Notes under the pieces: generated by a model | Told to the model about the DNA's origin: nothing | The model's input: the letters and a program-made list of their open reading frames with translations, nothing else | The model's database searches: none | Source: Paragyromitra xinjiangensis | Lineage: Eukaryota > Ascomycota > Pezizomycetes > Pezizales > Discinaceae | Direction of reading: 5' to 3' | Assembly: GCA_038503065.1 (NCBI GenBank) | Contig: JBCAMK010000018.1 | Coordinates: 1,302,001 to 1,366,000, forward strand | Length of the DNA: 64,000 bases | Made by a program: the position numbers and the translations under genes | Shown here: piece by piece, positions 14,997 through 39,059 of the stretch | Layout of the letters: each line of letters opens with the position of its first letter | Numbering within the stretch: the first letter of the stretch is position 1

Positions 14997-15213
14997 GATA
15001 TAGTATAAGAAGAAGGACAGTTTGATGGAATTGTGAAATTTGAGTGAGAAGACTGGGAGGACTCGGAGATCGTGTTTGCTAATGAAGAAGATTAGTAGGA
15101 AATGGTCATAAAATTTAAGTATTTAAAGACAAGCAGGCCCCTTAATCATAACAAGATATTTTTCCATGCCCCTTCTATAATACCCATCTTTCTAACTTCA
15201 ATCTACGCCCAAC

Positions 15214-17064: not shown

Positions 17065-17089
17065 TGTAGAATTTTTGTTTATTTATTTT

Positions 17090-18450: not shown

Positions 18451-18573
18451 GCCACTCCATACCATATCTAGTAAAAGAGGAGTATGTGTTGTCATTTTCC
18501 ACCTTATCTTTTTCCCCTCTGTTCAACCTCAACCACAACCACAATTTTATATCATCATCCACCATCTGCCATC

Positions 18574-19367
18574 ATGAGTTTTATCAACTATACTCCTCAG
18601 TCTATCAAAAATAAAGAAAGACCTGTCAAAGAGGGGACTGATCTCCTTAAACTCCAAAAAAAGCGGAAATATAATCAGGTTTCCAGGGCCCTTCTTACTG
18701 GTATTTCCCCCCTCTACCTTCATTAAATTTTATCATATAATAACTATTTCTTAGGTAAATTGCCTATCAATCTACCTGACGCACAGAGTTCTACTTTGCT
18801 GCCAGATCCCTACACTCCCAGGCCATTCAGATTTCACCTTATTCCTGCTCAATATGCTACCATTTACCGTCCCAATACCCTTCACCCACCCTCTATTACT
18901 GTCACCCCCTATGGTCTTGAGAACTTCCCCAAGCTACTGCAAATCCTTTCACAACTTGGACGTCATTATGGAGCTTTAAAGTTGCATCTTCCTCCTCTTG
19001 AGTCTGGCAATCCCTGGTACCATGTACCCAGTTCCAAGCCACTTAGTACTATCAGGTTGGATGTTAGGCAACAGGTGTTTGAAGAGCTGGAATGTAACGC
19101 CCCTAATGGTAGCAAGGCTTACAGGGTTGCCTTTTTACTCAAAAAAAAGCCCATGTCCCTTTGGCATTCTCATATGGTTAAAAAGGAGGATTTTGAATAC
19201 ATTGGTACAATGCAGAAGTTTTGGGCACAGGTTGCAAAAGAGGTGGAGGAGAAAGGGAGTTCACAAAATCGCTTTTATGGGGTTGACACTGAAAGTAAGT
19301 ACTTGATAAACCAATTTTCTTAATATTTAATTTTACTAACATTTTTTAGCCCATTTGGTTTCTATGG
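18574..19367 (+). pseudogene. JmjN/JmjC (KDM4-like) protein gene, 5' part: JmjN half, broken by element D
   Basis: ATG 18574 begins exon 1 (18574-18700). Exon 2 is 18755-19294 and exon 3 starts at 19350 and is cut at 19367 by element D. The protein 'RPFRFHLIPAQYATI ... PYGLENFPKLLQILSQLG' reads as a JmjN domain. It is followed by the KDM4-like linker 'EDFEYIGTMQKFWAQVAKE ... RFYGVDTE'. All intron phases agree. The GG at 19366-19367 is repeated at 34252-34253 on the far side of element D. Skipping the element and one GG continues the frame into the JmjC half at 34254. The gene lies inside transposon G, downstream of the tandem array, and I infer it is cargo of that transposon. A truncated product from this half alone would lack the catalytic fold. 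Confidence 0.8.
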
Positions 19368-20129
19368 CATCAGTAAAATTAATTATTTCCTCCCTCAGCT
19401 CCAGGAGGTTCGGAATCATCGGGAGGCATGGGAGACTCCTGGAGAATATGTGCCTACCTGGAGGAGCGGATGATGATCCTCATCCTCCACCAGAGACACC
19501 AGGAGTCCGGCGCCTCTCGGCGGAGTCTCATTGGAGATGATAAGGCTCACTCCCGGTGCGCATAATGTGCAAGTAATTACTCGATCTCCGGGAGGGCAGT
19601 CATATTGCTGTTTTCTTCATGGAGTATACGATATCGAGCTTCCTCCCTGGGAGTGCAGAGCGCGACTACCTTCTCCATGACGTATGCGATATCAAGCGTC
19701 CTCCCATTGAGAGCAGCAGCACGACTACATCCTCACTGAAGTATGGGTCATTCAAGACTCCTCCCGAGAGCGCAGAAGCACAACCACCTCCTCCCATGAT
19801 ACGTGATATCGAGCTTCTTCTCACGAGTCGATGTTTCTTACTTTACTACTCCATACTGTGGCATTTATCCCTCCGGGAGATATCACAGATGAATCGTCTT
19901 GGAGGTCCTTTGCATCCTTCCAATCCCTCCATATTCACTAAGGCATGCCATATCCTCTCCCGGGAGCCTTGCTTCGGATCGAGTCTACAGCCATTCACAT
20001 GATATCACTCGGACTTGTGGAATAGGCATAGAAGAATTGAAATTACTATTATAGTGAGAATCTACCAAAATACGATATAGATAATCCTCCGCGAATTGAG
20101 ATCAACCAAGGGATAAATCAAACAGAAAA

Positions 20130-20405
20130 CCAAAGATGAGGCGTATCCTCCCAAGCTCCTAGCGCTAACCAAAAGACAGACTAAAAAAACGGACTAAAGA
20201 AACAATGCAGTGTATCCTCCACGACCTCCAAAACTAACCAAACGACAGACAAAGGGAAAGATGCAGCGTATCCTCCACGACTCCCAAAACTAATCAAACG
20301 ACAGACAAAAGGAAAGATGCAGCGTATCCTCCACGACTTCCAAGACTAACCAAACAGCAGATGAAAACAAACGAAAGGAAAGATGCAGCGTATCCTCCAT
20401 GGCTC
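20130..20405. repeat. Tandem repeat, ~58-bp unit, about five copies
   Basis: The units share 'AAGATGCAGCGTATCCTCCA' followed by 'CGAC.TCCAAAACTAACCAAACGACAGACAAA'. It is placed near the left end of element D, downstream of the DUF6532-like gene. No coding frame crosses it convincingly. It may add to the sub-terminal binding region of the transposon. Confidence 0.75.
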
Positions 20406-20484
20406 AGAGCATCCCCTCAAAGATCTTCATCCTCCATTTCCGCTCAAAGCTTGCGACAGCGCAGAAAGGTCGACCTGCATATTA

Positions 20485-21037
20485 TCAGTAGTAGGAGGAC
20501 TGGTATCGGCTGCAGGAGTTGGAGGAGAGGGTATCGCCTTCACTTCCCATCTCACTCTGGCTTTCTTCCTCCAAGAAAAGGGTAGGAATATTGACAGGCC
20601 CCGATGCCTGCTCACTATCCTTGGGATGAGGAGACTCCGAACCCTTTCGCCTGTCTTTGCTTCGAGTACCTTGATAGCCTCCTCTTTCGAGCTCCCGTTT
20701 CCGCTTACGACGCCGCAACTCATCCATATGATCGCCGTCATCGGCATGATTCTCCAGGAGCAATGACTTGTCCACAGTCCTCCTAGTCACCCTGTGACCT
20801 TCTCTCTACCTTGTGCCGAATCGCATGCAGAACTTCCGCTTCCCATTCAGGAGCTTTGAGTCTTTATGGTATCCCGCGTCTTTATGCCAGTCTTTTCTGT
20901 CAGACGGCTATAAAGGATGTCAGTCATCCTAGCAAAGATATAGCAATTGGAGGGGCAGCAGTACGATAACAGGTCTCCCTAGTGAAGTCTGCAGGCTCCA
21001 CATACATGCCAGTCTTCCAGGCTTTCAAATTGTACTG
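20485..21037 (-). pseudogene. DUF6532-like protein gene, 3' part (cut off by element C)
   Basis: On the minus strand, from 21037 down: 'QYNLKAWKTGMYVEPADFTRETCYR', then an intron and 'KDWHKDAGYHKDSKLLNGKRKFCMRFGTR', then a second short intron and a basic, Glu/Arg-rich tail ending at 20485. The Ala/Leu-then-'W.TG..V..DF' pattern and the 'H...GYHK' motif resemble DUF6532, a domain found in many fungal transposon-associated proteins. The 5' part lies beyond element C at 24776-25960. The TG flanking C (CA on this strand) is duplicated, and removing C plus one copy joins the two halves in frame across the motif. Function unknown; it probably assists transposition of element D. Confidence 0.62.
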
Positions 21038-21126
21038 CATCAGTAAAATGAATTATTTTCTCCCTGAGCTCCAGGAGGCTCGGGATCGCCGGGAGGCTTG
21101 GGATACCCGTGGAGAATATGTGCCTA

Positions 21127-22987
21127 CATCAGCAAAAATTGATAAAGCCGCCCCGGCCGCCTGGAGGTCTAGGCGGTCGGGCGGAATGTTACCCTTCTGT
21201 TAGGTTGCTGCAGCATCTCGGCGCGCCCTAGAGGCATGGTTTCTAGACCTTTGACCGCCTGGAAGAGGTCGTTTCCTCCTGTAGCAAGTGGTGTAGTGGG
21301 CTGCTTCTGGACGCGTGTGGTCCCTCGCTGCCGCAGGATTTTGGTAGCAGTTCGCCCTGTAGAATGGATTTCTATAGCAGGGCCTGGAATATTCGGGAAT
21401 CACTTGTATTTTGGAACCAATATCATTTACAATTGCTTTATTCTATGTATCTATCTATATATCTATGTACAAATATCCAGGGCGCAGCTAAACTGGCTTC
21501 TGTGGAAGCTGCAGCAGCGAGTCGACAACCTGCCAGAGGCAGGCAGCGAATTGACCTATTGGCGCAGGCGCAGGCTCAGGCTCAGGCAGCGGATCGACCA
21601 TATGGCGCAGGAAGCGGAAGCTCAGGCAGCGAATCGACCTATTGGCGCAGGCGCAGGCTCAGGCAGCGGATCGACCATATGGCGCAGGAAGCGGAAGCTC
21701 AGGCAGCGAATTGACCTATTGGCGCAGGCGCAGGCTCAGGCGCAGGCGCAGGCTCAGGCAGCGGATCGACCATATGGCGCAGGAAGCGGAAGCTCAGGCA
21801 GCGAATCGACCTATTGGCGCAGGCTCAGGCTCAGGCAGCGGAGGCTGCTGCAGCGAATCGATCAATTGGCTGAGGCAGCGGAAGCTCAGGCAGCGAATCG
21901 ACCTATTGGCGCAGGCGCAGGCTCAGGCAGCGAATTGACCATATGGCGGAAGTGGAGGAAGCGGCGGAAGCGGCGGAAGCTGCAGCAGCGAATAGAGCAT
22001 ATGGCGGAGGCGGCAGAAGCTCAGGCAGCGGATCGACCATGTGGCGGAGGCAGCGGAAGCTCAGGCAGCGAATTGACCATATGGCGGAGGCGGAGGAAGC
22101 TCAGGAAACGGATCGACGACCTCCAGGAGGCGGCGGAAGCTCAGGGAGTGAATTGACCTATTGGCGCAGGCAGCGTAAGCTGCTGCAGCGAATCGATCAA
22201 TTGACTAAGGCTGCGGAAGCCCAGGCAGCGAATCGACGACCTCCAGGAGGCGGCGGAAGCTCAGGAAGCTCAGGCAGCGGATCGACTATATGGCGGAGGC
22301 TGCAGAGGCGGAGGCAGCGAATCGATCAGTCAATTGAGCTGCCTCCTGAGCTCGCTTAGGCGGAAGCAGCGAAGCAGGCAGCCGGCGGAGGCAGAGGAAG
22401 CTGAAGCAGCGGATCAAAGCGAGTCTAGGAGGCATATCAGCGGGAGTCAAATAAACGGAATCAAGACGTTACCTGGGAGGTTCTTTGCAAGCAGAGCTTC
22501 GCACTTCGAGCCTAAAAGTCACGATGTCAGCGGTACAGCGAGGTTGAGAATGGGTGGGAGGGAATAGGGGGAAGCAATAGAAGGAAGGACGGGAAGGAAT
22601 AGGGGGAGGTGGAGATTGCTGTCTTACTAGGCGTTGCTTTGGCGACGACTAAGCGACGACTTGGCGACTACAAAGTGATGACTAAGCGACTACATAGTGA
22701 TGACTAAGCGACCTCCAGATTTTTGAAAATCGCTAAGTGCCTGGGAGGCGAGTGTATTGAATTTTGCTAAGTCCCGAGTTTTCAGGGACTTAGAAAAATT
22801 CGATCGAAAATTTGCTAAGTACCCAAGCTGCCGCCCTGCGCTGCCGGATGGTAGGAGGTCGCCTGGAAGCGCTGCAGGCAGCAAGTGCCGCCCGGGGAAA
22901 TTGCAGCAGGCAGCAAGTGGCGCCCGGGCGTGGCAGGCGGTCGGGCGGAATATGTACCTATTGGGCGCAATTTTTTTTTTGCTGATG
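21127..22987. mobile_element. Element A: 1.9-kb minisatellite-carrying element, CATCAG ends, TA duplication
   Basis: It starts CATCAGCAAAAATTGATAAAG and ends TTTTTTTGCTGATG, with TA on both sides. The empty site can be seen in this same window: element D reads 'GTGCCTACCTGGAGGAGCG' (about 19451), while element C reads 'GTGCCTA' + A + 'TACCTGGAGGAGCG'. That proves the boundaries and the 2-bp duplication. Inside are a G+C-rich left end, the 40-bp minisatellite (21509-22345), and a right end with repeated 'GCGACGACTAAGCG'-type motifs. A second copy, A', is at 39403-41143 with the same order. Confidence 0.92.
21509..22345 (+). repeat. 40-bp minisatellite array (copy in element A)
   Basis: The unit is about 40 bp: 'AAGCTCAGGCAGCGAAT(T/C)GACCATATGGCGGAGGCGGCGG', with variants (CAATTG in place of CATATG, or a GACGACCTCCAGGAGG block). 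Because 40 is not a multiple of 3, three successive units are read in three frames. Each forward frame gives a 40-residue period such as 'RRQRKLRQRIDHMAEAAEAQAANRPYGGGGGSSGS...'. The frames stay open for up to 306 codons (21236-22156). Whether any is translated cannot be told from the sequence. Confidence 0.9.
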
Positions 22988-23309
22988 TACCTGGAGGAGC
23001 GATTCGCGACCAACCTCCTCAGGGAGGCACACGGAGGAGCAGCAAGCACTCCAGGAGACTCTAGGAGATCGATATAGGCACTCCCAAAGCGCCATGGAGA
23101 GCTGTGGAGAAGCATAAGTTACACCTGTCACCCTTCTCAATTCACTGATGTCACGCTGTCACTCAAGTTTGGAGAATATTTTGAATATTATTATTGACTA
23201 TCTAATGGATCTATATACATCGAACGAGTCCCCGCATCCTCCTGCCTGCCTGCCCTACTGGATCCCACTCCTCCTATTCCGAGCCTGCTGCTGAGCTTGC
23301 CGTGGAGTC

Positions 23310-24345
23310 GATTCGGAGGCAGGCAAACAGCCAATTCAGCTATGGATTCGGAGGCTCGGAAACGGCCTATCCGGAGGCAGGAAAGCACGGGATTCGGAGT
23401 CTATTAAGCAGTCAATTCAGCAGTCAATTCAGCAGGATTCGGAGCCTTAGAAACAGCCGATTCGGAGCCTATTCAGGAGTCAATTCAGCAGTGGATTCGG
23501 AGGCTCAGAAACAGCCGATTCGGAGTCTATGCAGCAGTCTATTCAGCAGTGGATTCGGAGGCTTGGAAACAGCCGATTCGGAGTCTATTCAGGAGTCAAT
23601 TCGGCAGTGGATTCGGAGGTTCGGAAACAGCCTATTCAGAGGCAGGAAATCACGGGATTCGGAGGCTTAGAAACAGCCGATTCGGAGTCTATTCAGGAGT
23701 CAATTCAGCAGTCAATTCAGCAGTGGATTCGGAGGGAGGAAACAGCCGATTCGGAGTCTATTCAGGAGTCAATTCGGCAGTCAATTCAGCAGTGGATTTG
23801 GAGGCTCGGAAACAGCCTATTCGGAGGCAGGAAAGCACGGGATTCGGAGTCTATTCAGGAGTCAATCCAGCAGTCAATTCAGCAGGATTCGGAGTCAATT
23901 CGGGAGTCTATTCAGCAGGATTCGGAGGCTCAGAAACAGCCGATTCGGAGGCTATTCAGGAGTCTATTCGGCAGTGGATTCGGAAGCTTAGAAACAGCCG
24001 ATTCGGAGTCTATTCAGGAGTCAATTCAGCAGTCAATTCAGCAGGATTCGGAGCCTTAGAAACAGCCGATTCGGAGTCAATTCAGGAGTCAATTCGGCAG
24101 TGGATTCGGAGGCTCAGAAACAGCCGATTCGGAGTCTATTCAGCAGTCAATTCGGAGTCTATTCAGGAGTCAATTCAGCAGTGGATTCGGAGTCTATTCA
24201 GGGGTCAATTCGGCAGTAAATTCGGAGGCTTAGAAACAGCCGATTCGGAGTCTATTCAGCAGTCATTTCAGCAGTCAATTCGGAGTCTATTCAGGAGTCA
24301 ATTCAGCAGTGGATTCGGAGGCTCGGAAGCAGTTGATTCAGCAAG
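23310..24345 (+). repeat. ATTCGGAG/ATTCAGCAG short tandem array in element C
   Basis: The array is built from 12- to 24-bp modules such as 'ATTCGGAGTCT', 'ATTCAGGAGTCA', 'ATTCAGCAGTGG' and 'ATTCGGAGGCTCGGAAACAGCCG' in varying order over about 1 kb. Two forward frames stay open for long distances (293 codons at 23549-24427 and 177 codons at 23529-24059), because TAG/TGA/TAA are absent from the modules. There is no recognisable protein family. It differs from the 40-bp array in elements A and B. Confidence 0.88.
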
Positions 24346-24775
24346 GGGATTGACAGGCCTACTCAGAGTTAGCTACTGTACAAAATGCGTTGATGGAGGA
24401 GTTGGAGGGGAGAAGGTATGGGCGTAGCAAAGGGGGTTAAAAGGGGGTGGGTGAATAGGGGTGGGCGGCGTGGGTGGGTTGGGGCAGCAACGGGAGTTGA
24501 AAGAAATTCTTAAGTCACTGGCGAGATCCAATAGTCTGCGATTCAGGGAGTCTCTTGCAGTGGTGTTGAGGTCCAGGAGTGGGATGGAGGCTCAGCATCG
24601 TGCCTTTGGCTCATGGAGGATAAAGCATATCTCGGGAGAAGCCATATCCTCCGGGAGATGCAGGTCGGGCGCTCGTGCCTCCAGGCGCCCTGGGAGCGCA
24701 CGGAGCACCTGGAGGAGATTGCCTCCCCGGGAGACGTGCCCATTCTCCTGGAGGCGTTAATTATTTTTACTGATG

Positions 24776-25960
24776 TGGAGTGCCGCTGTGACGAAGCAAA
24801 TGAACTCCTTATTGATCAAAGAGCCAAACGCAGAATCAGAGCGTCCCCTCATCCTCCTCCCCCTATAGTACTTGAGAAAGATGAGCTCAGCAATCGCATC
24901 ATTCAGAAAGCGATTCTTAAAATCCTAGTAGGATGGTCAGCTTCCTACTCCCATTGCTCTCGAATTCAACATACCGCCATGGTAGATTCAAGGCACATAA
25001 ACCTATCCTTGACTAGCAAATACTCCACCTTGTTTCGGATACTCTCAGGATTTTGCTCATCCAGCTCATAGAGCTGGATGATGCTCACCTTGGCTGCGCT
25101 GACGAGGTGAGAGCGCACGCGGCAATGTTGCTGGCTGATCTATATCTCATGTGAGGATATGCAGTATCCTTCAAGGAAAGGGGTAATTACCTGCCAAATA
25201 TTTTCTGTCGTCAGTTCCAAGCTCTCTAAGGCAAGCAAATCTGACCAGCTGTGGGTAGTAGGCCGTGGGTTGGGAGTGAATACCTGACGAGAACAAGCTG
25301 CCTCCAGAGGAGCCTGACGCTCCATATCCTCGGAAGCCTTCGCCCAAGCAGTACGTATCCACTTGAGCAATGTCTCGGGGGATGGCAGGGGCTCACAAAA
25401 TAGGGTCTTTTGCAGAATATTCTCCTGGGATGCATGGACTAAGGCACGGATAGGCTCTCCCAGCAGATATACGCTTCTGCTGCTCCTTCTATGAAGGTCA
25501 CCTCCGTTACGACTCTCTGCATCCCCCGTGGGAGATACAGACCTTCCACTGCTACGATTCGGAGAATTGGCAGGAGTTGCCGGAGGGCGGCCTGGCCTAG
25601 CTCGCCGAGCTGGTGCCTGCTCAAGGGGTTCGGGAACACGCTGCATCACAGTTAGAAAAGCTCTCAATAGTTTAGGATTCTCAATATCCGAGGATTTGCC
25701 GTATCCTCAGGGCTCCTACCAAGCGAGCTTGCCCTCGATAGCTAGCATTACGAGCCATTTCAGATGCTGCAGCCTGTATCTTCGTCTGTGGTTTTCTGGT
25801 CCGGTTCTGACTTGGGGGGGGAGCTTGCTCATCCTCATAGAAGTCTTCATCCGCTGAATCTTCTTCATCTACTCCCTCCTCGGTCTCCCCCTCAGCTTCC
25901 TCCTCGTTCTCCTCCTCATCCTCCTCCTCTCTTGCGGATGGCTGTCATCCTTCGACGGAG
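24776..25960 (-). pseudogene. DUF6532-like protein gene, 5' part
   Basis: Reading down from about 25960: an acidic stretch (poly-Glu, 'DEEDSADEDFYEDEQ'), 'TRKPQTKIQAAASEMARNASYRGQARL', a short intron, 'RVPEPLEQAPARRARPGRPPATP...', and 'PSPETLLKWIRTAWAKASEDM...SLELTTENIW'. After another intron come 'LYELDEQNPESIRNKVEYLLVKDRF', then 'DFKNRFLNDAIAELIFLKYYRGRRMRGRSDSAFGSLINKEFICFVTAAL', cut at 24776 by element C. That last part resembles the central helix pair of DUF6532 ('F.N.AI.L..TAL..AL..W.TG' across the insertion). The true start codon is not certain because the acidic exon has no clear ATG in frame. This is the minus-strand partner gene of transposon D. Confidence 0.6.
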
Positions 25961-26374
25961 AATGTATGATTTGGAAAGGTGATAGGTGATATTGTATGGA
26001 GGAGATAGAAGAGCGTATGGAGGAGAGAGGGAATCCTGAGGAGGACCTCTGGGGGTGATGCTTATAAGGAGTGCGGTCTGATCTCTAAGACATATTTGAA
26101 TTGACTCTAGCCCTAACATAATACTACTGACGCAGCGCTTCGACCTCCCAAAAAATAAAAAAATAAAAATACACGGATAGCAAATATCAAAGGATGCTCC
26201 ACATCCTCGCGGTAATCTCCATCAAGCGCCCCCTAATCCCAATCCTAATCCTAATACCCGATAATCCTAATCCCAATATCTCTAAACCCCCCTTCCGATC
26301 TTTCGTTTTTCTGTTCAATATTATAAGCATTTGCTGATCTAGTAATAGCCATCAGAAGGGAGTATACCAATCGT

Positions 26375-28000
26375 TCAAGCAGGTCCTGCTGCCTCATAAT
26401 CCTCATCCACTTCCTCCGTATCCTTCCCTTTCCCCTTATCCTTTGCTTTCCCCTTATCCTTCGCCTTCCCCTTATCCTTTGCCTTCCCCTTATCCTTTGC
26501 TTTCCCCTTCTCCTCCACTCCCTTCACTGCAGCCAAGGCTTCGGCAAGCGCTTCAGCCGTAAAATAATCAGGGTCCCCTGACGCAGGTGGCGTATCTGAG
26601 CCATCATACTCCTCCGCAGGCTCCCCCTTAGGGCCCGGACCATCGTATGGGGCCCGATGAAGGACGACCAGCATCCTCGGAGCGGTTAGACCCTGTATCT
26701 GGGCCAGCCAGCCAGCAACATCCTCATCGTCGGCAAGAATAGTAGAGGTTGGGAAAGTCGTAGAAACCTCTCCAGGAACAGCATCCACAAGGGCTCCTAG
26801 CATCCTTTGAGGAGTACGGCCCGCAGGTAATCGCCTCGTGGCTACGCGAAGGCACTCGTTAAGGGTAGGAGCACTAATTACGGCAACCCAAGACTTGATT
26901 AAACCCCAATTGACCTCAGCCGGTGCTTCCCAGGGATAACGAGTCCGAGTCTCCTTGGTGGAAACCCTCCACCAGGCATCCGGGTCACAGAGTGTCACTT
27001 GGACTGCGACTTCTTTGAATTCTGAATCACCCGCACGATAGTAAGCATCCTTCAGTCAAACAAATAGAAGATCATAAACAAAATCTTACCTTCCACATCG
27101 TTCTCTTTCTCGATCATACCAGTATCCTCTAGCTCTAAACGAATCTTGGTATCCGTCTGCTGCACCTGATGCAGGCAATCCCGAAGGAGACTCTGCATCG
27201 CCTGGTCTACCTGCTTCTTATCATCAGCATGCCTTGAACGGTAGGTCACAATAGAATGATGCTCCTCAGCCCATTCTGTTAATGCTTCCCAGGCATTGGC
27301 GCTAGGATTGGCGATGCCTCGGATACCATGCATCCTCAAATAGGATACAACATCACTCCGAAGGACGGTATAATGATGAGGATTATCCTCTCTGAAGCTA
27401 AGGAGTGGTTTGTAGTCGGTGGCCTTCATGAGTTTTTTCTTTGGCGTTTCCTTCTTTGGCGCCTTTCCCTTTATTACCACTTTCTTCGGCGTTTCAGGCT
27501 TCTTCGGGGGTTTTGGGTCCTTCTTCGGAGTCTCCGTATCCTCCTTTGGGGTTTCCGGATCCTCCAATGGTTCCTTAGCTTTGCCTTTACCTTTATCCAG
27601 AGCAGCCATGGGAATAGAAGGAGACTGCATATCCTTGAATGGTATAAGTACCTGGTCCAAAAAGAGGCGCCAAGCTTGAGTTGGGGGGGGAGTCGCGATA
27701 TCAGTCCTCCGAGTGCGAGGAGTAGGAGATGTGGGAGATGAAGGACCTGCGGAGAGGCGGGCAAACTTTCTGAGTTGATAGCCATCGCTGCTAGACGGGC
27801 GTTTTCGTTCTTTCGAGGGAGTCTCTGTATCTTTCGTAGGATTCTGAATAGCACTTGGTTCTGGTTCTGGATTCGATTTACTGGGAGTATTCACCGCCTA
27901 TTTATATTAGCATCAATGTATCAAGATACCCTGCGCCATGGAGTTTGCTCACCGCCCACTTCCCTGCGGAGTCTACTGCCGATTTGAGGATATTGGACAT
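26375..28000 (-). CDS. Lysine-rich accessory protein of element D
   Basis: ATG 28000-27998 ('MSNILKSAVDSAGKWA', exon 28000-27953), then 27897 down to about 27090, then about 27045-26375, separated by short introns. The second splice junction is not resolved exactly. The product (about 500 aa) has a low-complexity N-half rich in Pro, Lys and Glu ('KKDPKPPKKPETPKK') and a central folded part ('LRSDVVSYLRMHGIRGIANPSANAWEALTEWAEEHHSIVTYRSRHADDKKQVDQAMQ'). A second folded part follows ('WWRVSTKETRTRYPWEAPAEVNWGLIKSWVAVI'), then a C-terminal run of 'KGKAKD' repeats before an acidic end. No stop is seen. The highly charged ends suggest nucleic-acid or chromatin binding. Its place between the transposase and the DUF6532-like gene suggests an accessory transposon protein; I do not recognise a family. 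Confidence 0.6.
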
Positions 28001-28158
28001 CTTGAAACAGTAATATCAAGTTGGTTTAGGAAGGATATATAGTATCGTGAGCTTAGGCAAGCTAGGAGAGAAGGTTGCAGAGGATGGAGGAGAGTGAGGA
28101 GGAAGCTGAAGAGGAGGAGAAGCAGGATTTGTTTGCCCTGGCAGCGTTTATGAGGTCA

Positions 28159-30100
28159 CATCAGCAAAAAAAAAATGTCGCCCCGACACTTTCTTGTCTT
28201 CCGGAAGGCCATATTCCGCCCGCTGCGTTTGTGGCCTTCCCTACAACCCAGGCGAGCTGGTCCGAGTGCTTGCCTGTGCGGGCGCAGGTTGCGCAACGCT
28301 CCGGCCTCCTGGCGCTCGGCTGCAGCTCAGCTGTGACCACCCACGCCCGGATGTGGCACTTAGCGAAATCCAGCGGGCTCTGCCCATCAAATTTTGCTAA
28401 GTCCCTGGAAACTCGGGACTTAGCAAAATTCACCTCGCCTCCCCACAGGCACTTAGCGATTTTCAAAAATCTCCAGGTCGCTTAGTCATCGCTTAGTAGT
28501 CGCCGTGCCGTCGCCAAAGCAACGCCTAATAAGACACCAATCTCCACCTCTCCCGTCCTTCCTACTATTGCTTCCCCCTATTCCCTCCCACCCATCCCCT
28601 ATTCACTCCCACCCATCCCCTACCTCGCTGTACCGCTGACATCGTGACATTTAGGTTCGAAGTAACGAGCTCTGCTTGCAAAGAACCTCCCAGGTAACGT
28701 CTTGATTCCGTTTATTTGACTCCCGCTGATATGCCTCCTAGACTCGCTTCGATCCGCTGCTTCAGCTTCCTCTGCTTCCGCCTAAGCGAGCTCTATATGC
28801 TGATCGATTCGCTGCAGCAGCCTCCGCTGCCTGTGCCATATGGTCGATCCGCTGCCTGAGCTTCCGCTGCCTCCTGAAGGTCGTCGATCCGCTGCCTGAG
28901 CTTCCTCCGCCTCCGCCATATGGCCAATTCGCTGCCTGAGCTTCCGCCGCCTCAGCCAATTGATTGATTCGCTGCCTGCGCCATATGGTCGATTCGCTGC
29001 CTGAGCTTCCGCCGCCTCCTGGAGGTCGTCGATCCGCTGCTTGAGCTTCCTCCGCCTCCGCCAATTGGTCAATTCGCTGCAGCAGCCTCCGCTGCCTCCG
29101 CCATATGGTCAATTCGCTGCCTGAGCTTCCGCCGCCTCAGTCAATTGATCGATTCGCTGCCTGCGCCATATGGTCGATCCGCTGCCTGAGCTTCCGCCGC
29201 CTCCTGGAGGTCGTCAATTCGCTGCCTGAGCTTCCTCCGCCTCCGCCATATGGTCGATTCGCTGCCTGAGCTTCCTGAGCTTCTGCCATATGGTCGATTC
29301 GCTGCCTGAGCTTCCGCTGCCTGCGCCACATGGTCAATTCGCTGCAGCAGCCTCCGCTGCCTGCGCCATATGGTCAATTCGCTGCCTGAGCTTCCGCCGC
29401 CTCAGTCAATTGATCGATTCGCTGCTGCAGCCTCTGCAGCCTCCGCCATATGGTCGATCCGCTGCCTGAGCTTCCGCCGCCTCCTGGAGGTCGTCAATTC
29501 GCTGCCTGAGCTTCCTGCGCCTCCGCCATATGGTCGATCCGCTGCCTGAGCTTCCTGAGCTTCTGCCATATGGTCAATTCGCTGCCTGAGCTTCCGCCGC
29601 CTCAGTCAATTGATCGATTCGCTGCAGCAGCCTCCGCTGCCTGCGCCATATGGTCAATTCGCTGCCTGAGCTTCCGCCGCCTCCGCCAGGTCGTCGATTC
29701 GATGCTCAACCCCCCCTACCCATAGAGTACGAAGAACAGATACATGTACATATAGAACTATATATAGATCCATAGAAATAATAGAACGATTGTAAACAAG
29801 CATATGGTGCCAGGCCAGGTGAAAACTCCCAAACTAGACCATAGGGCGACCTGCTGAAAATGTGATTCTGTGGGCGCGCTGCTCTCCCCCCGCTGTCCTC
29901 CAGACGCTCGTCAACCCTCCGTGGTCGTCCAGAGAATAGCCTCCTGGACCTAGGGCGCCCCCATGCCGACCTCTAGTAAGCTGTCGCCCAGACGTGAAGA
30001 GCAAATTTTAGGGCCTGAGGGAGGGCTATATTCCGCCCGGACCGCCTGGGGCGCCTGATGCATTGGGCGGACCGGGCGACAATCCGTTTTTTTGCTGATG
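28159..30100. mobile_element. Element B: 1.9-kb minisatellite-carrying element (reverse orientation), CA duplication
   Basis: The ends are CATCAGCAAAAAAAAAATGTC and CCGTTTTTTTGCTGATG, flanked by CA on both sides. It holds the same components as element B' in the opposite orientation: an end with 'GCTTAGTCATCGCTTAGTAG' and CTAAGTCCC/GGGACTTAG inverted motifs, the 40-bp minisatellite (read on the minus strand), and a G+C-rich end with 'GGGCGGACCGGGCGACAATCCG'. It has no transposase. It lies between the lysine-rich gene and the transposase of element D. Confidence 0.9.
28779..29705 (-). repeat. 40-bp minisatellite array (copy in element B)
   Basis: The same unit as at 21509-22345, on the minus strand, about 23 units. 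CATATG, CAATTG and GACCTCCAGGAGG spacer variants alternate. Minus-strand frames are open over 66-116 codons. Confidence 0.9.
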
Positions 30101-30644
30101 CATATATGAGGTATTGATAGGATCTGTGCACAGGCTAACCCTAACCCACACCGAATCCTCTAAGCGACGCCTACACCTCCTATTTTAGGATTAGCCTACC
30201 CCCATAGTTCAACCTCATATCAACACCCCCTGAACTCCGACGAGCAACAAACGAAAGCCTCCTACCTTTGCAAGCAGCAGAATCCTACTCTAGTGATCAA
30301 TATCACTCCACTTCAGCGAGTTACAGCATCCTACTCCCTTCCAGCATCCTACTCCCTCTCAGCATCCTACTTCTCCTCGGCATTAGCATCCCCGAGGCTG
30401 ATTTCCAGCGATCGCCGCAAATCCTCCACGGGGCAACATTCCATTCCCACGCAAGCTCTAGCCTGCATCCCCCTAATAGTGAGCAAATATCCTACTTTCT
30501 ACCAGCGATTATCAGCATCCTAATTTCTCTTAGCAAATATTAATATCGTACTTCCAGCAAGGGCATTCTACCGTTAAGCGAGCTCCAGCATCCATCCCTT
30601 AGCATCTTGCTCCGCAGTTGATACACGGCATCCTTCAAGTTGAT

Positions 30645-33600
30645 ATGGAGGTTTCAAGATCCCGCTGCCCATTGTGCCGCCGCACCTACAGCTCAGCTCT
30701 GTCGTTGCATACTCACGTGATAGATATCCATCCTAAGCATGCCTCTATCGTATTTGGCCAAGGAGGCTCTCAATCCGAGGAGGATGAACGGGATGGTGCA
30801 GCAGGCTCATGGCGCAAACAGAATCCAGACAGCGATTGGGAAGATATCTGCTCCAACTCGGAAGGAGGCACATCATCGGATGGGAGCACTGCAGGCGGAA
30901 GTGAGAAGGATGACGAGAATCCTTCTGATACGGAGGATAATGACGGGAATACCAACACAGGGCCCATGCAGCTGCCTGGCCCAAGGATAATTCAATTTGC
31001 CGATGCAGCGTGCTCTTTGGGGGATGTGGAGGATCATCGAGAGGTTGTCGAATTCCTCCTCTCAAACCCCTACGCTCCATTTGAGACGGCTTTTGACTTC
31101 AAGCTCGCTAGGTGGATATTAGAGAGTGGGATAGCACAAACCCGCATCAACGAGTATTTCAACGAGGAGCTCTGCACTACTACGCCAGGATTTAGGTCTG
31201 CCCATATGATGTACAGACTCCTCGATAGGATAGATCCTGATTTAGGCCAAGCGCACTGGCAGCGAGGGAGTTGTGAAGTCATGGAGGGGACGAGGAAAAG
31301 AGTGACGTGGTATTACTTCAGGCCAATACTGGCCTGTATCCAATACTTGCTCAAACAGCCGGCATATGCCAAGGATATGGTCTATCGTCCAGTTCGAGAA
31401 TACAACGACAGCGGAGAGAGGATGTATTCTGAGCTGCATACAGCAGACTGGTGGTGGGAAATACAGGTTAGCTATTCCCTCCTACGTATCCATTATTCTG
31501 CTAATTCTCGTGGCTAGGAAAGCTTACCTCACGGAGCCACGGTGATTCCAGTCATCTGCGGCTCGGATGGCACACATCTCACCAATTTCTTAGGTGATAA
31601 GAAGGCTTGGCCAATCTACTTGACGATAGGGAATATCCCTTCCGAAGTTCGAAATAAGCCAACGAATATGGCTATGATTCTCGTGGCGCTCCTCCCAATC
31701 CCTCCAAAGTTTACAAAAGACAATTCAATCAATAGACTCCGCCGAGAAGCCAATAGAGATATACTGCACGAGGTCCTCAGCATCCTTTTCAAGGATATGA
31801 AAGAGGCTGGGATGACTGGAATCCGATTAGCATGTGCGGATGCTCAGTACCGAATGTGCTATCCAATCCTTTGTGCTTGGATGGCTGACCACGCAGAGCA
31901 TTGCCAACTCCACAACCTGCAGCAAAACGCCTGCCCAAAGTGCGAGGTCAAACCAGACCAACTTGGTGAGCAAGCCAGCAGCCCGAAACGAAACGATAAG
32001 GAGTATCAGGAAGTGGCGCAATCCTTCGCCGATACTGGAGATCCTCAGGAGTTGGAGTATCTCGTCGAACGAGGGCTGAAAGTGCCATTCAACGTCTTTT
32101 GGGGGATGCCACACCTCCCTCGCGCTGGGGACCTCCACAAGCCAGACCTCCTACATAACATCTATCTCGGTTTATTGAAGCATCTGATGGAGTGGATAGA
32201 GAGCTTCCTTGAGAAACACAAGAGGCTGCAAGCATTTGACGAAGTACGGATGTCGATACCCCCTTCCCAGGCCTGGCTAGGCCAACTAAAGCCTATCGAG
32301 AGGTTTCCCAGTGGCAGGGCAAGGAGATCGCAATCTCGGCCGTATCCTTCTCGGAGCCTTTGCAGTTGCGCTGCTCCATCCGTCGAAGGATGAGCTATAT
32401 CCTTTCAAGCGAGCTATCGCTTTGCGTGCGGAGTTTTATCGATTTCCACCTTTATGGCACAGACAAAGAGCCATACACCTGAAACCTTGCGATATATGGA
32501 TCACTACCTCGCCGACTTCCACCAGCATAAGGATATCTTCCTAGAATTCAGAGCCTCGAAGAAGGCAAGCGCAAAGGCACGGGCAACAGTCAAGCGCTTG
32601 AAGCTATCGCAGGATGCCCGACCTCCTCTTGCAGGATCAAGAAAAAGACGATTGGAGGATGCAGATAGGCTTGAAAGGAGAGAGCTACTCGTTGAAACGC
32701 AGCAGGAAGAAAGCCACTTCAACTTTCCAAAGATGCACCTCCTAATGCACTTCCATGAGCATGTTGAGCGGTATGGAGGGATCCCCATGTTTTCTACCGA
32801 GGTTGGGGAGACAGCACATCGGCAGCAGATCAAAGAAGGATATAGGGCATCCAATAAAATCGATTCGACGAAGCAAATCCTGCGCTACTATGCACGTCGA
32901 CAAGCATTGGGTATGCGTATATTGAACCTCCGGGCCCTTTCTAGGGATGCTGAAGCTCCCAATTACGAGTATGCTGAGCCTCCCAATTCGCAAGCTGCAC
33001 AATATCCTTAGGCGAGACGATCGGAGATCCAACATATAGGAGAAAGAGCATCCCTCCGGCGATTATGTGGTCGACAAGCGAAGATTTCCCTTCTGCATGA
33101 CATCATCTCCCTAATGAATATTCCGGATCTACCGGAACGAATACTATATTACAGCAGTCAGAATTTGAAGGATGAGCGTCGTCTTGAGGAGGATACAGAG
33201 GCTCTTCTTACATACCCAGCTGAGATGTTCTCTCACCTTCGAGTCCCTGTGCCTATGTTTCAGCGGCCTGAGGAGTTTGAGCTTCATCGTGTGAGATGCA
33301 CAGGGGAGCGAGCGTTTAGGGGTCGAGCTCCACGAAACGATTGGGTGTGGGTCCAGGTAGGAGACGAGAGCCAGTTTGGTGCTCTTCGAGGACGCCTTCC
33401 AGCCAAGGTGCTTTGCCTCTTTAAGATTCGAGATCCTCATACAGAGTACACACATCGGCTAGTCCTTGTGAGGATGCTACGAGCCTTTCCAGGTGGAGGT
33501 AGGATTACGGACATCCATGGGATGGTGAGAGTATCTACTAGGCTGAAGGATGATCGATTCGTTGTGGGGATAAAGAATATCATGGGAATCGCGGATCTCA

Positions 33601-33701
33601 TTCCCGAGCAGCCGGAGCTCCAGGAGAATAATACTAAATGGCTGGTCAACAACCGAATTGACCTTACAACGTTCAATGAGATATATACATTAGAGAATTG
33701 A
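30645..33701 (+). pseudogene. Plavaka-type transposase of element D, frameshifted and with an in-frame stop
   Basis: ATG 30645 begins 'MEVSRSRCPLCRRTYSSALSLHTHV', a C2H2 zinc finger (C-x2-C-x12-H-x5-H spacing). An acidic linker and the transposase core follow. Exon 1 ends at 31466 ('WWWEIQ'), and after a 51-bp intron exon 2 (31518) opens with 'LPHGATVIPVICGSDGTHLTNF'. The Asp-Gly-Thr and 'LTIGNIPSEVRNKP' segments are hallmarks of Plavaka transposases (CACTA-like superfamily in fungi). Conserved text then jumps frame three times: 'KPIERF' (near 32305), 'QWQGKE' (near 32312-32328), 'RNLGRILLGAFAVALL' (to about 32440), 'KSHTPETLRYMDHYL' (from about 32470). A TAG at 33009-33011 interrupts the last long segment, which continues in frame to 33701. 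The copy is therefore inactive as written. Confidence 0.88.
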
Positions 33702-34253
33702 GGATGCTGAGTATCCTCGCAAGACTAGGAACTTGGAAGCATGAGTGGATTAGGAAACTGGGCATCCTCGAGGATTAGGAGCTTGTACATAGTCAGGGAC
33801 TCGGACTCGGAGAACATAGAGTAGACGAAGGATTAGAGAGAGTAGACGAAGGATGAGAGCAGGAGTGAGATGGAAGTAGGCGTAGGATGCTTAACATCCT
33901 ACGTGGCAACACTGCATCATTTGAACGAATAGAGCCAATAAAATCTAAATACTGCGTACTTGGCTGCAATTACTAAGCAAAGCACTTGAAAATTTGCGGG
34001 AAAGAGAAGCATTATCCTCCTAGAGATATAAATAAGTTGTTAGGCGCTCCACGAGCTAACTGCAGCGACGAAGAGCACCCATTTCCTCCAGGAGATAGCT
34101 GGAGTCGAAAGGATTAGGTATATCCTCCAGGAGGAAATCGTAGCGCAACCACTCCTCAAGGAGGTCAGGGAGCACACGGAGGTTGAGGAGAAAATTGCCT
34201 CCCCGGGAGACGTGCCCAAACTCCAGGAGGCGATAATTATTTTTACTGATGGG

Positions 34254-35171
34254 AGCAAAGCAGGACCTTTCTATTTGATGACGAGTTTAACCTGCTTTTG
34301 ACACCTGGCCTGACTTTTATACCTGGTATTACCACCCCCTATGTCTATTTTGGACAACCAGGTACAGCCTTTTCCTGGGATGTGGAAGATTATCACTGTC
34401 ATTCTGCAAATACTTTATTGGATGGGGCTCCGAAAATCTGGCATGTTATTCCTGGTCATTCCATGCATAGATTTGTAGCTCAAGCTAAAGGTATATCTCC
34501 TATTTTAATTTTTAATTTTTGCTAATATAATTTTGAAGCTACTATACCAGAACTCACCTTAACCACCTGCCCCCAAGCTCTTCGTCATGAGGGTTTTGTG
34601 CTTTCTGCTCCTCCTTTAACACTTGAGGATTGGGTGAAATGTGGCTATCCATGTCATCAATTTACTCAGGAAAAAGGAGATATGATGGTACTATTTCCAG
34701 GGGCCTACCACTCAGGTATTAATAGTGGTTGGAATTTAGCAGAGGCTATGAACTTTGCTACCGAGGATTGGATTGAGGAGGGGAGAAAGTACCAACCCTG
34801 TGATTGTGAGAATGCTCCTACTGCATCAGCAAGAACAAAAAATGACCTATTTGAAATTAGGATCATGTTCTTACCTCTGTGACCTATTTGGCTCCTATTT
34901 GGACCTCTGTGGCCTCTGTGGCCTCTGCAGAGGAAAATATCGAAATTTCCTCAGAAACCTCCACAGAGGAATGTTGACCTCTGCAGAGGCCACAGAGGCC
35001 AAATAGGAGCCAAATAGGCCACAGAGGTCAAATAGGCCACAGAGGAATGTCGTTTGTTTTTGCTGATGTGAACCCATTGTTTTAGACTTGGACTTGATTC
35101 AAGACACAGTAGAGGGGAAAAAATTGGGAAAGGGGAAAGCAAAGGCAAAGGGAGGGGCTCAGGGCGAGATT
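34254..35171 (+). pseudogene. JmjN/JmjC (KDM4-like) protein gene, 3' part: JmjC catalytic half, broken by elements E and B'
   Basis: After element D the frame continues 'LFDDEFNLLLTPGLTFIPG' (to 34490). After an intron it runs 34539-34823; element E (34824-35068) interrupts, and the frame resumes at 35071-35171, where element B' begins. 'GITTPYVYFGQPGTAFSWDVED ... GAPKIWHVIPG ... GAYHSGINSGWNLAEAMNFA' is a JmjC domain in KDM4-like order. The first iron-ligand position, His in the usual 'W-H-x-E-D', is Asp here. The Glu and the distal His ('YHSG') are kept. Family knowledge: JmjN/JmjC KDM4 enzymes demethylate histone H3K9/K36 using Fe(II) and 2-oxoglutarate. With Asp at the first ligand, activity is doubtful. 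The Lys/Gly-rich tail is at 35100-35171. Confidence 0.82.
34824..35068. mobile_element. Element E: 245-bp MITE with CATCAG ends, TG duplication
   Basis: It runs from CATCAGCAAGAACAAAAAATG to CGTTTGTTTTTGCTGATG, with TG on both sides. The inside is almost one long imperfect hairpin of 'CCTATTTGGCTCCTATTTGG / CCAAATAGGAGCCAAATAGG' and 'GGCCTCTGCAGAGG' motifs. It sits in the coding sequence of the JmjC gene and, counted with its duplication, its length (247 bp) shifts the frame. Confidence 0.9.
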
Positions 35172-35544
35172 CATCAGCAAAAAAACGGATTGTCGCCCGG
35201 TCCGCCCAATGCATCAGGCACCCCAGGCGGTCGGGGCGGAATATAGCCCTCCCTCAGGCTGTAAATTTTGCCCTTCACGTCTGGGCGACAGCTTACTAGA
35301 GGTCGGCATGGGGGCGCCCTAGGTTCAGGAGGCTATTCTCTGGGCGACCACAGAGGGTTGACAAGCGTCTGGAGGACAGCGGGGGGAGAGCAGTGCGCCC
35401 ACAGAATCACATTTTCAGCAGGTCACCCTGTGGTCTAGTTTGAATGCTTTTGCCCATATTCTTGTTTACAATCGTTCTATTATTTCTATATAGCTCTATA
35501 TGTACATGTATCTGTTCTTCGTATCCTAGGGGTAGGGGGGGGAG

Positions 35545-36201
35545 CGGAGGCAGCGGAGGCTCCTGCAGCGAATCGACCAATTGGCGCAGGCAGCGGAAGC
35601 TGCAGCAGCGAATTGACCATATGGCGCAGGCAGCGGAAGCTGCAGCAGCAAATTGATCAATTGACTGAGGCGGCGGAAGCTCAGGCAGCGAATCGACCAT
35701 ATGGCGGAGGCGGTGGAAGCTCAGGCAGCGAATCGACCATATGGTGCAGGCAGCGGAAGCTGCTGCAGCTGTGGCGGAGGCGGCGGAAGCTCAGGCAGCG
35801 GATCGATCATATGGCGCAGGCAGCGGAGGCTGCTACAGCGAATCGATCAATTGACTGAGGCAGCGGAAGCTCAGGCAGCGAATTGACCATATGGCGGAGG
35901 TGGAGGAAGCTCAGGCAGCGAATTGACGACCTCCAGGAGGCGGCGGAAGCTCAGGCAGCGAATTGACCATGTGGCGCAGGCAGCGGAAGCTGCTGCAGCT
36001 GTGGCGGAGGCGGTGGAAGCTCAGGCAGCGAATCGACCATAGGACGCAGGCAGCGGAGGTGGAGGAAGCTCAGGCAGCAGATTGACGACCTCCAGGAGGT
36101 GGCGAAAGCTCAGTCAGCGGATCAACCATATGGCGGAGGCAGCGGAGGCTGCAGCAGCGAATCGGTCAATTGACTGAGGCAGCGGAAGCTCAGGCAGCGA
36201 A
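35545..36201 (+). repeat. 40-bp minisatellite array (copy in element B')
   Basis: The same 40-bp unit as in A and B, about 16 units before the LTR-like insertion and two more after it (37239-37310). Several modules are duplicated as blocks; for example 'GCAGCGGAAGCTGCTGCAGCTGTGGCGGAGGCGG' appears twice. Confidence 0.88.
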
Positions 36202-37233
36202 TGTAAGACCGGTACTTCGCACCACTACTGAATTCTAAGCGAAGCTTTAGATAGCTCTCTAGACTCTGTAACTCGACCGGCTACTATCCGTAGCACAATA
36301 CCCGAGTGCACGTCCTGACAACTTCTTATGAACCGCACAAAGGCAACGATAGTTTAAGCGAGATAAGGGTCGGGGCTGTTCCGTTGAAAGAACTTTCTCA
36401 ATAGGAAGGACACGAGTGTTGAAGCGCGAAGCTATGCTAAACAACTCGATACGATGGAGAATTTATCACGGAACAAAGTATGTTGGTAACAAAATAATAT
36501 TGATAAGGCTCGTTCTTCCTCGATGATGATCGACTCAGAATTGACGTCCAATGCAAGAGTATTTATATCCCGTCCTCTTTACTACTTTGTGTTCTTTGTA
36601 GCTTGGGTCGACGGACTAAACTATCTACTATTACAAATTGAACTAACTCGCTTATCCATTTATTTGACATCCTATCGGCGAAGCCGATATCTCCAACTTC
36701 CAACGCTTACCCCTCGTTCAGTAATCCTCAGATCGCCTCAGTTCGACGTGGCGATGATACGGTTGCGATGGTTGCGTTTGCCCAATTGAGTAGGTGGTTA
36801 CACGATATCGTTTTGTTGCGACAGCTGGTGTTTGGAGCCCCGTAGCACGGGCAGGAGACCTCTGATGACTAATCCGAATAGCCCACGTGACTCGGCGCCC
36901 CAAGTTGCCCTATGAAGACCTCTCATACATACCCTCCGGGTCGCGTTCCGCGGGAAGGGCGCCGTTGACGACCAAAGGGTTACTTTTAGTCTCCGGGACG
37001 CGGATATTTTGCGGGTGTCCCCCCTTCTCGATCTACTCGCGGCTGAAGGCAGGGTAACGGCCGGGTAACCGGGGAAGGCAGGGTAACTGCCTGGGAATAG
37101 GCTGGGAAGTCAATAGGCAGCCACAGAGGAGTCCAACGAAGACGGGAAGGTGACCAAATGGAAGGTAGGGTAACTCCCTACGTAGGTAGGGTAACAGGGA
37201 GACCACTGCACGCCTATAGCCATAGGTATAACT
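36202..37233. mobile_element. LTR-like insertion (possible solo LTR), 1032 bp, 5-bp duplication GCGAA
   Basis: The sequence TGTAAGACCGGTACTTC... breaks the minisatellite, and the array resumes after '...CATAGGTATAACT'. GCGAA stands at both borders (36197-36201 and 37234-37238). A 5-bp duplication, a TG start, about 1 kb length and no ORF fit a solo LTR of a Ty1/copia or gypsy element. The 3' end is AACT rather than CA, so the identification is tentative. Inside is a cluster of 'GCAGGGTAAC / CCGGGTAACC' motifs near 37050-37200. Confidence 0.6.
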
Positions 37234-37938
37234 GCGAATCGACCATATGGCGCAGGCAGCGGAAGCTCAGGAAGCTCAGGCAGCAAATCGACCAGCCAAT
37301 TGAGCCGCCTCCTGAGCTCGCTTAGGCGGAAGCAGCAAAGCAGGCAGCCAGCGGAGGCAGAGGAAGCTGAAGCAGCGGATCGAAGCGAGTCTAGGAGGCA
37401 TATCAGCGTGAGTCAAATAAACGGAATCAAGACTTTAACTAGGAGGTTCTTTGCAAGCAGAGCTTAGTACTTCGAGCCTAAAAGTCATGATGTTAGCAAA
37501 GTACTATGGTACAGCGAGGTAGGGGATGGGTGGGAGGGAATAGGGGGAAGCAATAGTAGGAAGGACGGGAGAGGTGGAGATTGGTGTCTTATTAGGCGTT
37601 GCTTTGGCGACGACTAAGCGATGACTAAGCGACCTGGAGATTTTTGAAAATCGCTAAGTGCCTGGGGGGAGGCGACGTGAATTTTGCTAAGTCCCGAGTT
37701 TTCAGGGACTTAGAGAAAAAAAAAATTCAATCGAGCAACCTGCTAAGTACCACATCTGGGCGCGGGTGGCCGGAGCCGAGCGCCAGGAGGCCGGTGCAGT
37801 GTGCAGGTTGCGCCCACACAGGCCAGCGCTTGGAGCAGCTTGCCTAGGCGGTCGGGAAGGCCACAAACTCAGCGGGCGGAATATGGCCTTCCAGAAGACA
37901 GGAAAGTGTCGGGGCGACATTTTTTTTTTGCTGATGTT

Positions 37939-37974
37939 AAAAGTGAGGAATATGTTTTAGAGGATGAGGAGTAG
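37939..37974 (+). pseudogene. Last codons of the JmjC gene, beyond element B'
   Basis: The TT next to element B' is duplicated (35170-35171 and 37937-37938). Skipping B' and one TT gives '...GEI|KSEEYVLEDEE' and TAG at 37972-37974 in the same frame. Adding all exon pieces (127+540+18+237+285+101+36) gives 1344 nt, a multiple of three. Confidence 0.75.
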
Positions 37975-37991
37975 TTAGGAGAAGAGGGGTA

Positions 37992-38670
37992 TCCCATGGA
38001 CCGTAACTAAGCATTTTCGCACGGTATTCCGTGCGAATTTTTGGGAGGTTTCCTTCTTTTATCCATAACACCTTCAGCAACCCCCTTTGCCCCTACCTCA
38101 TAGTGCAAAATACAAGTATTAACAACTGGAGATAATTTTAATATCTTGTCAAGATTGCTTAGAATTTTTTCTTGATGAGGGATGGCTCTTGGAAGTTGTA
38201 GGAATATGAGGGTGTGACCAAATATACCCCACAAAATTGGCTCTGAGAACATTGCAACAGCCTTCCCCATTGATAATTTGCAGCTAAAAACACCCACTTT
38301 TCCACCTAAATTTCAACTTTTGAAGACCAAGATAATTAAAATAAATCGCAGCTCTTTCTAGATCATCTAATTTGGCTACTTTATCTAGAATGTATACCTC
38401 AAAATTGTGTCTCATCTACAGGAGAGAGCTAGGGTTTTTCACTTTTAGTGAGAATTCACTCAAAAATGCGCCAAGCTTACAGTCTAGCACATACTACCAA
38501 CTCAAAATAGATCACATAAAATATCTAGAGATAGAAATGATCCCTAGATTATGGGCATATTCTCATTAATTTCTCTAGATTTAAAAGGCTTGTTGTGGCT
38601 GTATAGGCTGTGATAAGCGGGTTCTAAATTCGCACGGTTTTCCGTGCAAATCTCGTTACGGTCCATGGGA
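37992..38670. mobile_element. 679-bp TIR element, ends TCCCATGGACCGTAAC, TA duplication
   Basis: TCCCATGGACCGTAAC at the left is the inverted complement of GTTACGGTCCATGGGA at the right. TA stands on both sides (37990-37991 and 38671-38672). Near each end is a small hairpin (TTCGCACGG..TTCCGTGCGAA). The longest frame (38007-38297, minus, 96 codons) is not recognisable. It is placed just after the stop codon of the JmjC gene, in the right end of element G. Confidence 0.8.
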
Positions 38671-38672
38671 TA

Positions 38673-39013: not shown

Positions 39014-39059
39014 TTTGACTTTCTGAATTATGGCAGGATGGTCGCTATAGGCCGCCGTA
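39014..39059 (-). repeat. Right terminal inverted repeat of element G
   Basis: Inverted partner of 13330-13375. The sequence immediately outside is CATGATC, identical to the sequence immediately outside the left end. Confidence 0.88.

Follow-up and report, generated by a model that had tools for sequence, protein, structure and literature searches.

Genes of the TET/JBP family have been reported on fungal DNA transposons, among them IS3EU elements, in rusts and in Tuber indicum (Kojima, 2025, PMC12730594). The IS3EU elements of rusts described there have ends of the type TAYGG..CCRTA, inverted repeats of >30 bp and 6-bp target site duplications (TSDs), and the paper on IS481EU (PMC10045372) states that TA..TA termini are present in all complete IS3EU families, with duplications that are usually 6 bp long. 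Here, we describe element G, a transposon of the ascomycete Paragyromitra xinjiangensis with a gene for a KDM4-like JmjC protein. It is located in a stretch of 64,000 nucleotides (the window; C18:1302001-1366000, contig JBCAMK010000018.1 of assembly GCA_038503065.1), which was analyzed together with the searched genome of 48.2 Mb in 22 contigs. The ribosomal protein L3 encoded there matched the PDB entries 7r81, 8oo0 and 7olc best (342 bits), ahead of entries such as 4u3m at about 312 bits; these structures are from Neurospora, Chaetomium and budding yeast, which makes the host probably a filamentous ascomycete. We consider it probable that the KDM4-like JmjC gene is a regular component of an IS3EU-type transposon family, and that the product demethylates histone H3 and thereby opposes silencing.

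Like the IS3EU elements with TET/JBP genes, element G has ends of the TAYGG..CCRTA type, a TSD of about 6 bp and an extra dioxygenase gene whose product possibly erases a silencing mark, and in both a further accessory gene is opposite in orientation to the transposase gene. The cargo differs, as the described elements encode a DNA-base dioxygenase and an alpha-kinase, whereas element G encodes a JmjC histone-demethylase-like and a zinc-ribbon-like protein; the term 'JmjC' is absent from the main text of PMC12730594. Among the open-licence papers listed by full-text searches, covered by titles and the starts of abstracts (subscription papers lay mostly outside this scope), none reported a transposon with a JmjC gene. 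A KDM4-like JmjC gene with introns, encoding a protein without the other KDM4 domains, is described from endogenized giant viruses of Amoebidium and proposed to act against host chromatin (PMC11244446). These are, however, giant-virus insertions in a relative of animals and not a fungal DNA transposon. VANC of the Arabidopsis VANDAL elements (PMC10398659) is likewise a transposon-encoded anti-silencing factor. It is described there as a sequence-specific binding protein, and a link with the 146-bp tandem array of element G is a mere idea.

In the window, the 20-base end TACGGCGGCCTATAGCGACC was found exactly twice (≤3 mismatches), in inverted orientation at 13330-13349 (+) and 39040-39059 (-), as against 0 in 100 shuffles. 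The element spans 25,730 bp, of which about 7 kb are its own sequence and the rest nested inserts. From the left end, it contains the zinc-ribbon-like gene (-), the integrase gene (+), the tandem array and the JmjC gene (+), followed by the right end:

13323..13329, + strand: left TSD, CATGATC
13330..39059, no strand given: element G, placed as an IS3EU-type DNA transposon; inverted ends, TSD and end-to-end alignment with an 8,084-bp copy on C14
13330..13415, + strand: left terminal inverted repeat (TIR), nearly perfect over ~45 bp and weaker to ~86 bp
13810..14996, - strand: zinc-ribbon-like accessory gene, partial model with two main exons and approximate ends; CxxC..CxxC at the protein start
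15214..17064, + strand: integrase/transposase gene, five exons, in-frame TAG early in the window copy; PF24764/PF00665 on the C14 copy
17323..18415, + strand: tandem array upstream of the JmjC gene, 146-bp unit, ~7.5 copies; also in L001 and L015
38972..39059, - strand: right TIR
39060..39066, + strand: right TSD, CATGATC

A preliminary description of this DNA had placed the JmjC gene, from 18574 (start) to 37974 (end of the stop codon), between the TIRs of element G together with an integrase and a zinc-ribbon gene; both repeats indeed bracket all three genes, and the limits of the JmjC gene were recovered as given.

To place the element among known superfamilies, 13 pairs of ends were read, seven with the end of the G family (window, C14 and five short elements) and six with a sister end, TAC(C/G)GAGG; the copy on C20 was read in addition. 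Of the 13 left ends, 12 read TACGG and one (L012) TACCG; the right end was CCGTA in all 13 pairs, and the C20 copy starts with TATGG. The duplications measured 7 bp in three pairs, 6 bp in five and 5 bp in two, and were missing in three; they are 7 bp long in the window and C14 copies and 6 bp in the C20 copy. Element G shows both the end motif with long inverted repeats and the TSD length of IS3EU. The TACGG..CCGTA ends, the mostly 5-7-bp duplications and the DDE integrase agree with the IS3EU superfamily, in which we therefore place it on these characters.

Whole-genome searches with the JmjC protein and DNA, the counts of which are lower bounds, detected this JmjC type at least five times: in the window, on C14, on C20 and at two places on C16 (C16:1163525 and C16:232466). 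Each of these loci lies next to an end of the G type, and together they represent three complete elements, one truncated and one old copy. The C14 copy (C14:1413050-1421133; L001:551-8634) is 8,084 bp long, is flanked by the 7-bp TSD CTAGAGT and aligns end to end with the window copy. It is free of the window's inserts at the same places and has an insert of its own of 1.04 kb inside the zinc-ribbon gene. The C20 copy (C20:1395215-1415701) has GTCAAC on both sides (6 bp, by eye) and contains JmjC (with a 2-bp gap), integrase and zinc-ribbon sequence together with nested inserts. The copy at C16:1163525 (L013) is truncated at the JmjC side, its single end being C16:1164343, and the copy at C16:232466 (L038) is old, with a decayed end, 74-80% DNA identity and stops and gaps in JmjC. 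The family integrase (≥84% identical over the exons) was found at three places, each time with JmjC; the three copies with both ends and an integrase (window, C14 and C20) thus all carry JmjC, each with its own TSD, which bears out the earlier view that the gene belongs to the transposon. No JmjC copy of the transposon type was detected outside an element in the whole-genome search.

Two 4.9-kb copies of a sister family with the ends TACGGAGG (L002 and L003) carry an integrase and a zinc-ribbon-like gene without JmjC; a further small gene near one end had no Pfam match over the cut-off. The L003 integrase is 45-65% identical to that of element G over the first three segments and 32% at the C-terminus. 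Nine further end pairs (L004-L012), spanning 0.7-2.3 kb, leave no room for the gene set and were treated as non-autonomous. In total, 30 end matches were found in the genome, and two single ends were left over, C16:1164343 of the truncated copy and C20:9872. Since all five JmjC loci adjoin a G end and all three copies with an integrase have JmjC, while the sister family does without it, JmjC is a family-specific cargo, as are the TET/JBP genes in some IS3EU families. Neither of the results that the preliminary description had named as refuting its reading was obtained: intact copies of the G family without the gene were not seen, those of the sister family having another end, and of the host JmjC genes detected in this genome, none is close to that of the transposon.

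The JmjC gene of the C14 copy consists of four exons and three introns and encodes an open frame of 447 codons. PF02373 (JmjC, E 1.9e-24) was the sole Pfam family at E≤1, so that PHD, Tudor and TET/JBP families were not found in the protein at this threshold. The nearest PDB sequences were KDM4D (110 bits) and RPH1 (109), followed by JMJ14 (90), KDM5 (up to 85) and JARID2 (43). Residues H271, E273, H365, N281, K289, C318, H324, C395 and C397 are all present and aligned with KDM4. We take H271, E273 and H365 to be the iron ligands, N281 and K289 to contact the cofactor and C318, H324, C395 and C397 to bind zinc, as in KDM4 structures. The C14 copy therefore shares with KDM4/RPH1 the JmjC core, the HxE..H iron site, the cofactor Lys (2-oxoglutarate) and Asn and the C-H-C-C zinc site. 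It differs in that no JmjN, PHD or Tudor domain was detected and that it lies outside the KDM4 rows in a tree, a wider KDM4 clade not being rejected (p 0.17 in the approximately unbiased (AU) test). Regarding the domain order of KDM4 that had been proposed, the JmjC domain and the Cys-containing stretch, which aligns with the KDM4 zinc site, were recovered, and the YGVD linker lies inside the KDM5C-aligned part (181-391). The JmjN domain did not stand: Pfam gave no match at E≤1, and a small profile of six JmjN sequences gave no score for residues 1-250, although 1055 of 2000 shuffles of this stretch scored; a strongly diverged JmjN might escape both searches. The KDM4-like character of the JmjC core as such was upheld by the nearest PDB sequences and the aligned ligands. 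A fold model of the core was weak (mean pLDDT, the predicted local distance difference test, 50.7; pTM, the predicted template modelling score, 0.50). It gave 312 fold matches at E ≤ 0.001; among the 50 listed, the titles that name a protein were JMJD2/KDM4, and the 2w2i chains are titled only as a human 2-oxoglutarate oxygenase.

Aligned with C14, the window copy has four insertions, located in the JmjC gene or directly downstream of it; the preliminary description did not mention that the gene is in pieces:

18574..18700, + strand: JmjC gene exon 1
18755..19294, + strand: exon 2, N-terminal region and YGVD linker
19350..19367, + strand: exon 3, first part
19368..34251, + strand: nested Plavaka transposon splitting exon 3, 14,884 bp, ends CATCAGTAAAA..TTTTACTGATG, TSD GG
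34254..34490, + strand: exon 3, rest; iron-ligand His codon changed to Asp (H271D)
34539..34823, + strand: exon 4, first part (zinc C318/H324, second iron His)
34824..35068, no strand given: small nested insert of ~0.25 kb, CATCAGCAA..TTGCTGATG, 2-bp duplication TG
35071..35171, + strand: exon 4, middle part
35172..37936, no strand given: nested insert of ~2.8 kb, CATCAGCAAAA..TTTGCTGATG, 2-bp duplication TT, repeat inside at 36200-37232
37939..37974, + strand: exon 4, last part and stop
37993..38669, no strand given: nested insert of ~0.7 kb directly 3' of the JmjC gene, CCCATGGACCGTAAC..GTTACGGTCCATGGG, duplication AT by eye

Positions 34252-34253 are the duplicated GG of the Plavaka insertion, and pieces of a Plavaka transposase are present at 30603-32393, two of which match PF18759 (E 2e-17 and 2.6e-59). 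As the Plavaka element and two smaller inserts split the gene and H271D removes an iron ligand of the KDM4 type, the window copy is dead. Inside the Plavaka element, long open frames without a Pfam match above the cut-off lie at 25143-27897 (-) and possibly represent an accessory gene. A repeat of ~1.04 kb has inserted in several members, namely at 36200-37232 in the window, at L001:6021-7063 in the zinc-ribbon gene of the C14 copy, and in L004 and L014.

Relatives of the JmjC protein outside this genome were sought in protein searches. The 447-aa C14 protein gave one match, P0001 from Alternaria (E 9.5e-7), in 3997 scored candidates, and an alignment of five JmjC proteins gave eight among 7994. 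Of these, the one that groups with the transposon protein in the tree below is P0073, a metagenomic protein of 168 aa from a contig of 1,297 bases. It scores 134 bits against the C14 copy and 74 bits against the host KDM4 and, like the transposon protein, has a short insertion midway through the core as well as the stretch YQPCxC. Relatives of the transposon JmjC were not confirmed in viral contigs or in prokaryotic genome contigs, and a PADLOC scan of P0073 returned nothing. In a tree of 13 rows, from which P0066, P0069 and P0072 were left out, the transposon protein and P0073 grouped together (91/94, below the tool's star), apart from KDM4, KDM5 and another host JmjC protein; both terminal branches are long and the deeper forks weak (71/58). 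Grouping the transposon protein with the host KDM4 alone, as would be expected of a recent copy, was rejected (AU p 0.0007), and so was a clade with the C3 JmjC protein of the host and two relatives (AU p 0.010). For the host KDM4 with P0073, p was 0.028, for the host KDM4 with RPH1 and P0073 it was 0.069, and the wider clade of all KDM4 rows with P0073 was not rejected (0.17). On these AU tests (0.0007 versus 0.17), the transposon gene is not a recent host copy but may be an old offshoot of KDM4.

The host itself has a KDM4, a KDM5 and five further JmjC places. A further JmjC protein of the host, the C3 protein (L035:2145-4055 (-), C3:2986379 region), reads HAED at the iron site, is nearest to KDM4A in PDB (80 bits) and has close relatives in metagenomic contigs (P0068-P0071). 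Among the search matches, P0066 and P0067 (Alternaria alternata and Stemphylium lycopersici) each combine a JmjC with a SET domain and are possibly demethylase-methyltransferase fusions; 37 member sequences make up the P0066 cluster.

Selection on the JmjC gene was analyzed in four comparisons with C14 as the reference, in which the synonymous counts were set against a spectrum-matched null (5000 simulations with the same changes placed at random). As the C14 reference branch is common to each, the comparisons are not independent. In the old C16 copy (204 of 447 codons), 45 synonymous and 57 non-synonymous changes were counted, with 30.2 synonymous changes expected, and only 4 of 5000 simulations reached 45. 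In the second C16 copy (134 of 447 codons), 9 synonymous and 8 non-synonymous changes were found, with 5.0 synonymous ones expected (152 of 5000). The old C16 copy had raw rates of 0.129 (non-synonymous, dN) and 0.464 (synonymous, dS), and the second C16 copy had 0.025 and 0.119, respectively. The raw dN/dS was set aside in favor of the null because transitions dominate (12/13, 4/4, 17/17 and 80/102 changes in the four comparisons), which fits C-to-T mutation pressure. In raw counts, uncorrected for site frequency, CpA sites showed no excess, except perhaps in the second C16 copy (9/17). Two of the four comparisons, those with the older copies, suggest past purifying selection on the JmjC protein.

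The host has two Pre-SET matches, one of which was compared with PDB, where its best matches were H3K9 methyltransferases, among them Clr4 (121 bits) and DIM-5 (71). It also has C5 DNA methylase matches at three places. In the mechanism that we propose, the JmjC protein would demethylate histone H3 at K9 and/or K36 in the chromatin of the transposon itself. Silencing through H3K9 methylation by the host's Clr4/DIM-5-type enzymes would thereby be loosened, which could allow expression of the transposase gene or open up the element for excision. Candidates for the targeting step are the transposase, the array of 146-bp repeats and the zinc-ribbon accessory protein.

Several points weigh against this proposal. 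The association of JmjC with a transposon was seen in one species only, and the sister IS3EU family does without the gene. Only C14 is whole among the five JmjC loci, and no copy that was read has all three genes whole, as the zinc-ribbon gene is interrupted in C14 and JmjC and integrase are broken in the window. The young copies showed no departure from the null (5 synonymous changes versus 4.1 expected in the window, 1 versus 1.4 in C20). Lastly, JmjN, which KDM4 enzymes have, was not found in the C14 protein, and the fold model was weak.

The lack of JmjC in the sister family, its broken or partial state at four of five loci and the missing selection signal in young copies would also be expected if JmjC were a passenger, captured by chance and spread by transposition alone with no gain to the transposon. 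We regard this as unlikely, since the gene was already present when the old C16 copy (74-80% DNA identity) diverged and shows its synonymous excess there, C14 has kept all ligands and three introns, and the gene is not a recent copy of the host KDM4.

Slightly less likely still, the protein might oppose silencing without demethylation, either by binding or by hydroxylating another substrate. Fission yeast Epe1, a putative demethylase, is described as opposing silencing by a non-enzymatic function (PMC7192584). That no JmjN, PHD or Tudor family was found in the transposon protein, and that it stands beside the KDM4 rows in the tree, would be in line with such a role; the iron, cofactor and zinc ligands, all retained in C14, however, exceed the need of a protein that only binds.

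A host demethylase that resides within the transposon, or was recruited from it, and serves the fungus would explain why C14 alone is whole. This is very improbable, as JmjC travels with the element, with TSDs at three loci, the host has JmjC genes of its own, including KDM4 and KDM5, and the whole-genome search found no copy outside an element. That an unrelated JmjC gene and repeats were joined by nesting or misassembly, as the heavily nested window with its gene in pieces might suggest, can be dismissed on the C14 and C20 copies: the 8.1-kb C14 copy has the same order without the inserts, and the duplications at the junctions are clean. Demethylation of H3 by a regular gene of the transposon family remains the reading that we prefer.

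The other components of the element were characterized on the C14 copy and the sister elements. The C14 integrase is an open frame of 544 codons once four introns are removed, and matched PF24764 (E 3.5e-32) and PF00665 (E 7.1e-8). D217, D276 and E317 are conserved when the query is aligned with 13 relatives (14 rows). A protein search found 64 relatives among 7998 scored candidates; the fungal ones with a species name are all ascomycetes (Penicillium, Aspergillus, Talaromyces, Paracoccidioides and Usnea), and three species-named relatives are animals. The zinc-ribbon-like protein gave no Pfam match at E≤1, and in L002 and L003 a gene with a similar start has a similar position relative to the integrase. 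In the copies read, the array (unit 146-147 bp; L001:2617-3814 in C14) lies between the integrase and JmjC genes and contains an internal palindrome around GGTAACTGAGGAC; it could have a regulatory or protein-binding role.

Enzymes acting on methylated DNA bases are known from DNA transposons of fungi. In Neurospora, histone methylation acts upstream of DNA methylation. Element G is possibly, though with somewhat more doubt than confidence, the first DNA transposon seen with a KDM4-like demethylase of its own as an anti-silencing weapon, the enzyme being a member of an old lineage of mobile JmjC proteins that occurs in other organisms too (P0073). If true, a transposon-borne eraser of histone methylation would extend the arms race between transposon and host to the histone layer, and one gene on one element would provide a small natural system for testing whether transposons actively undo heterochromatin.

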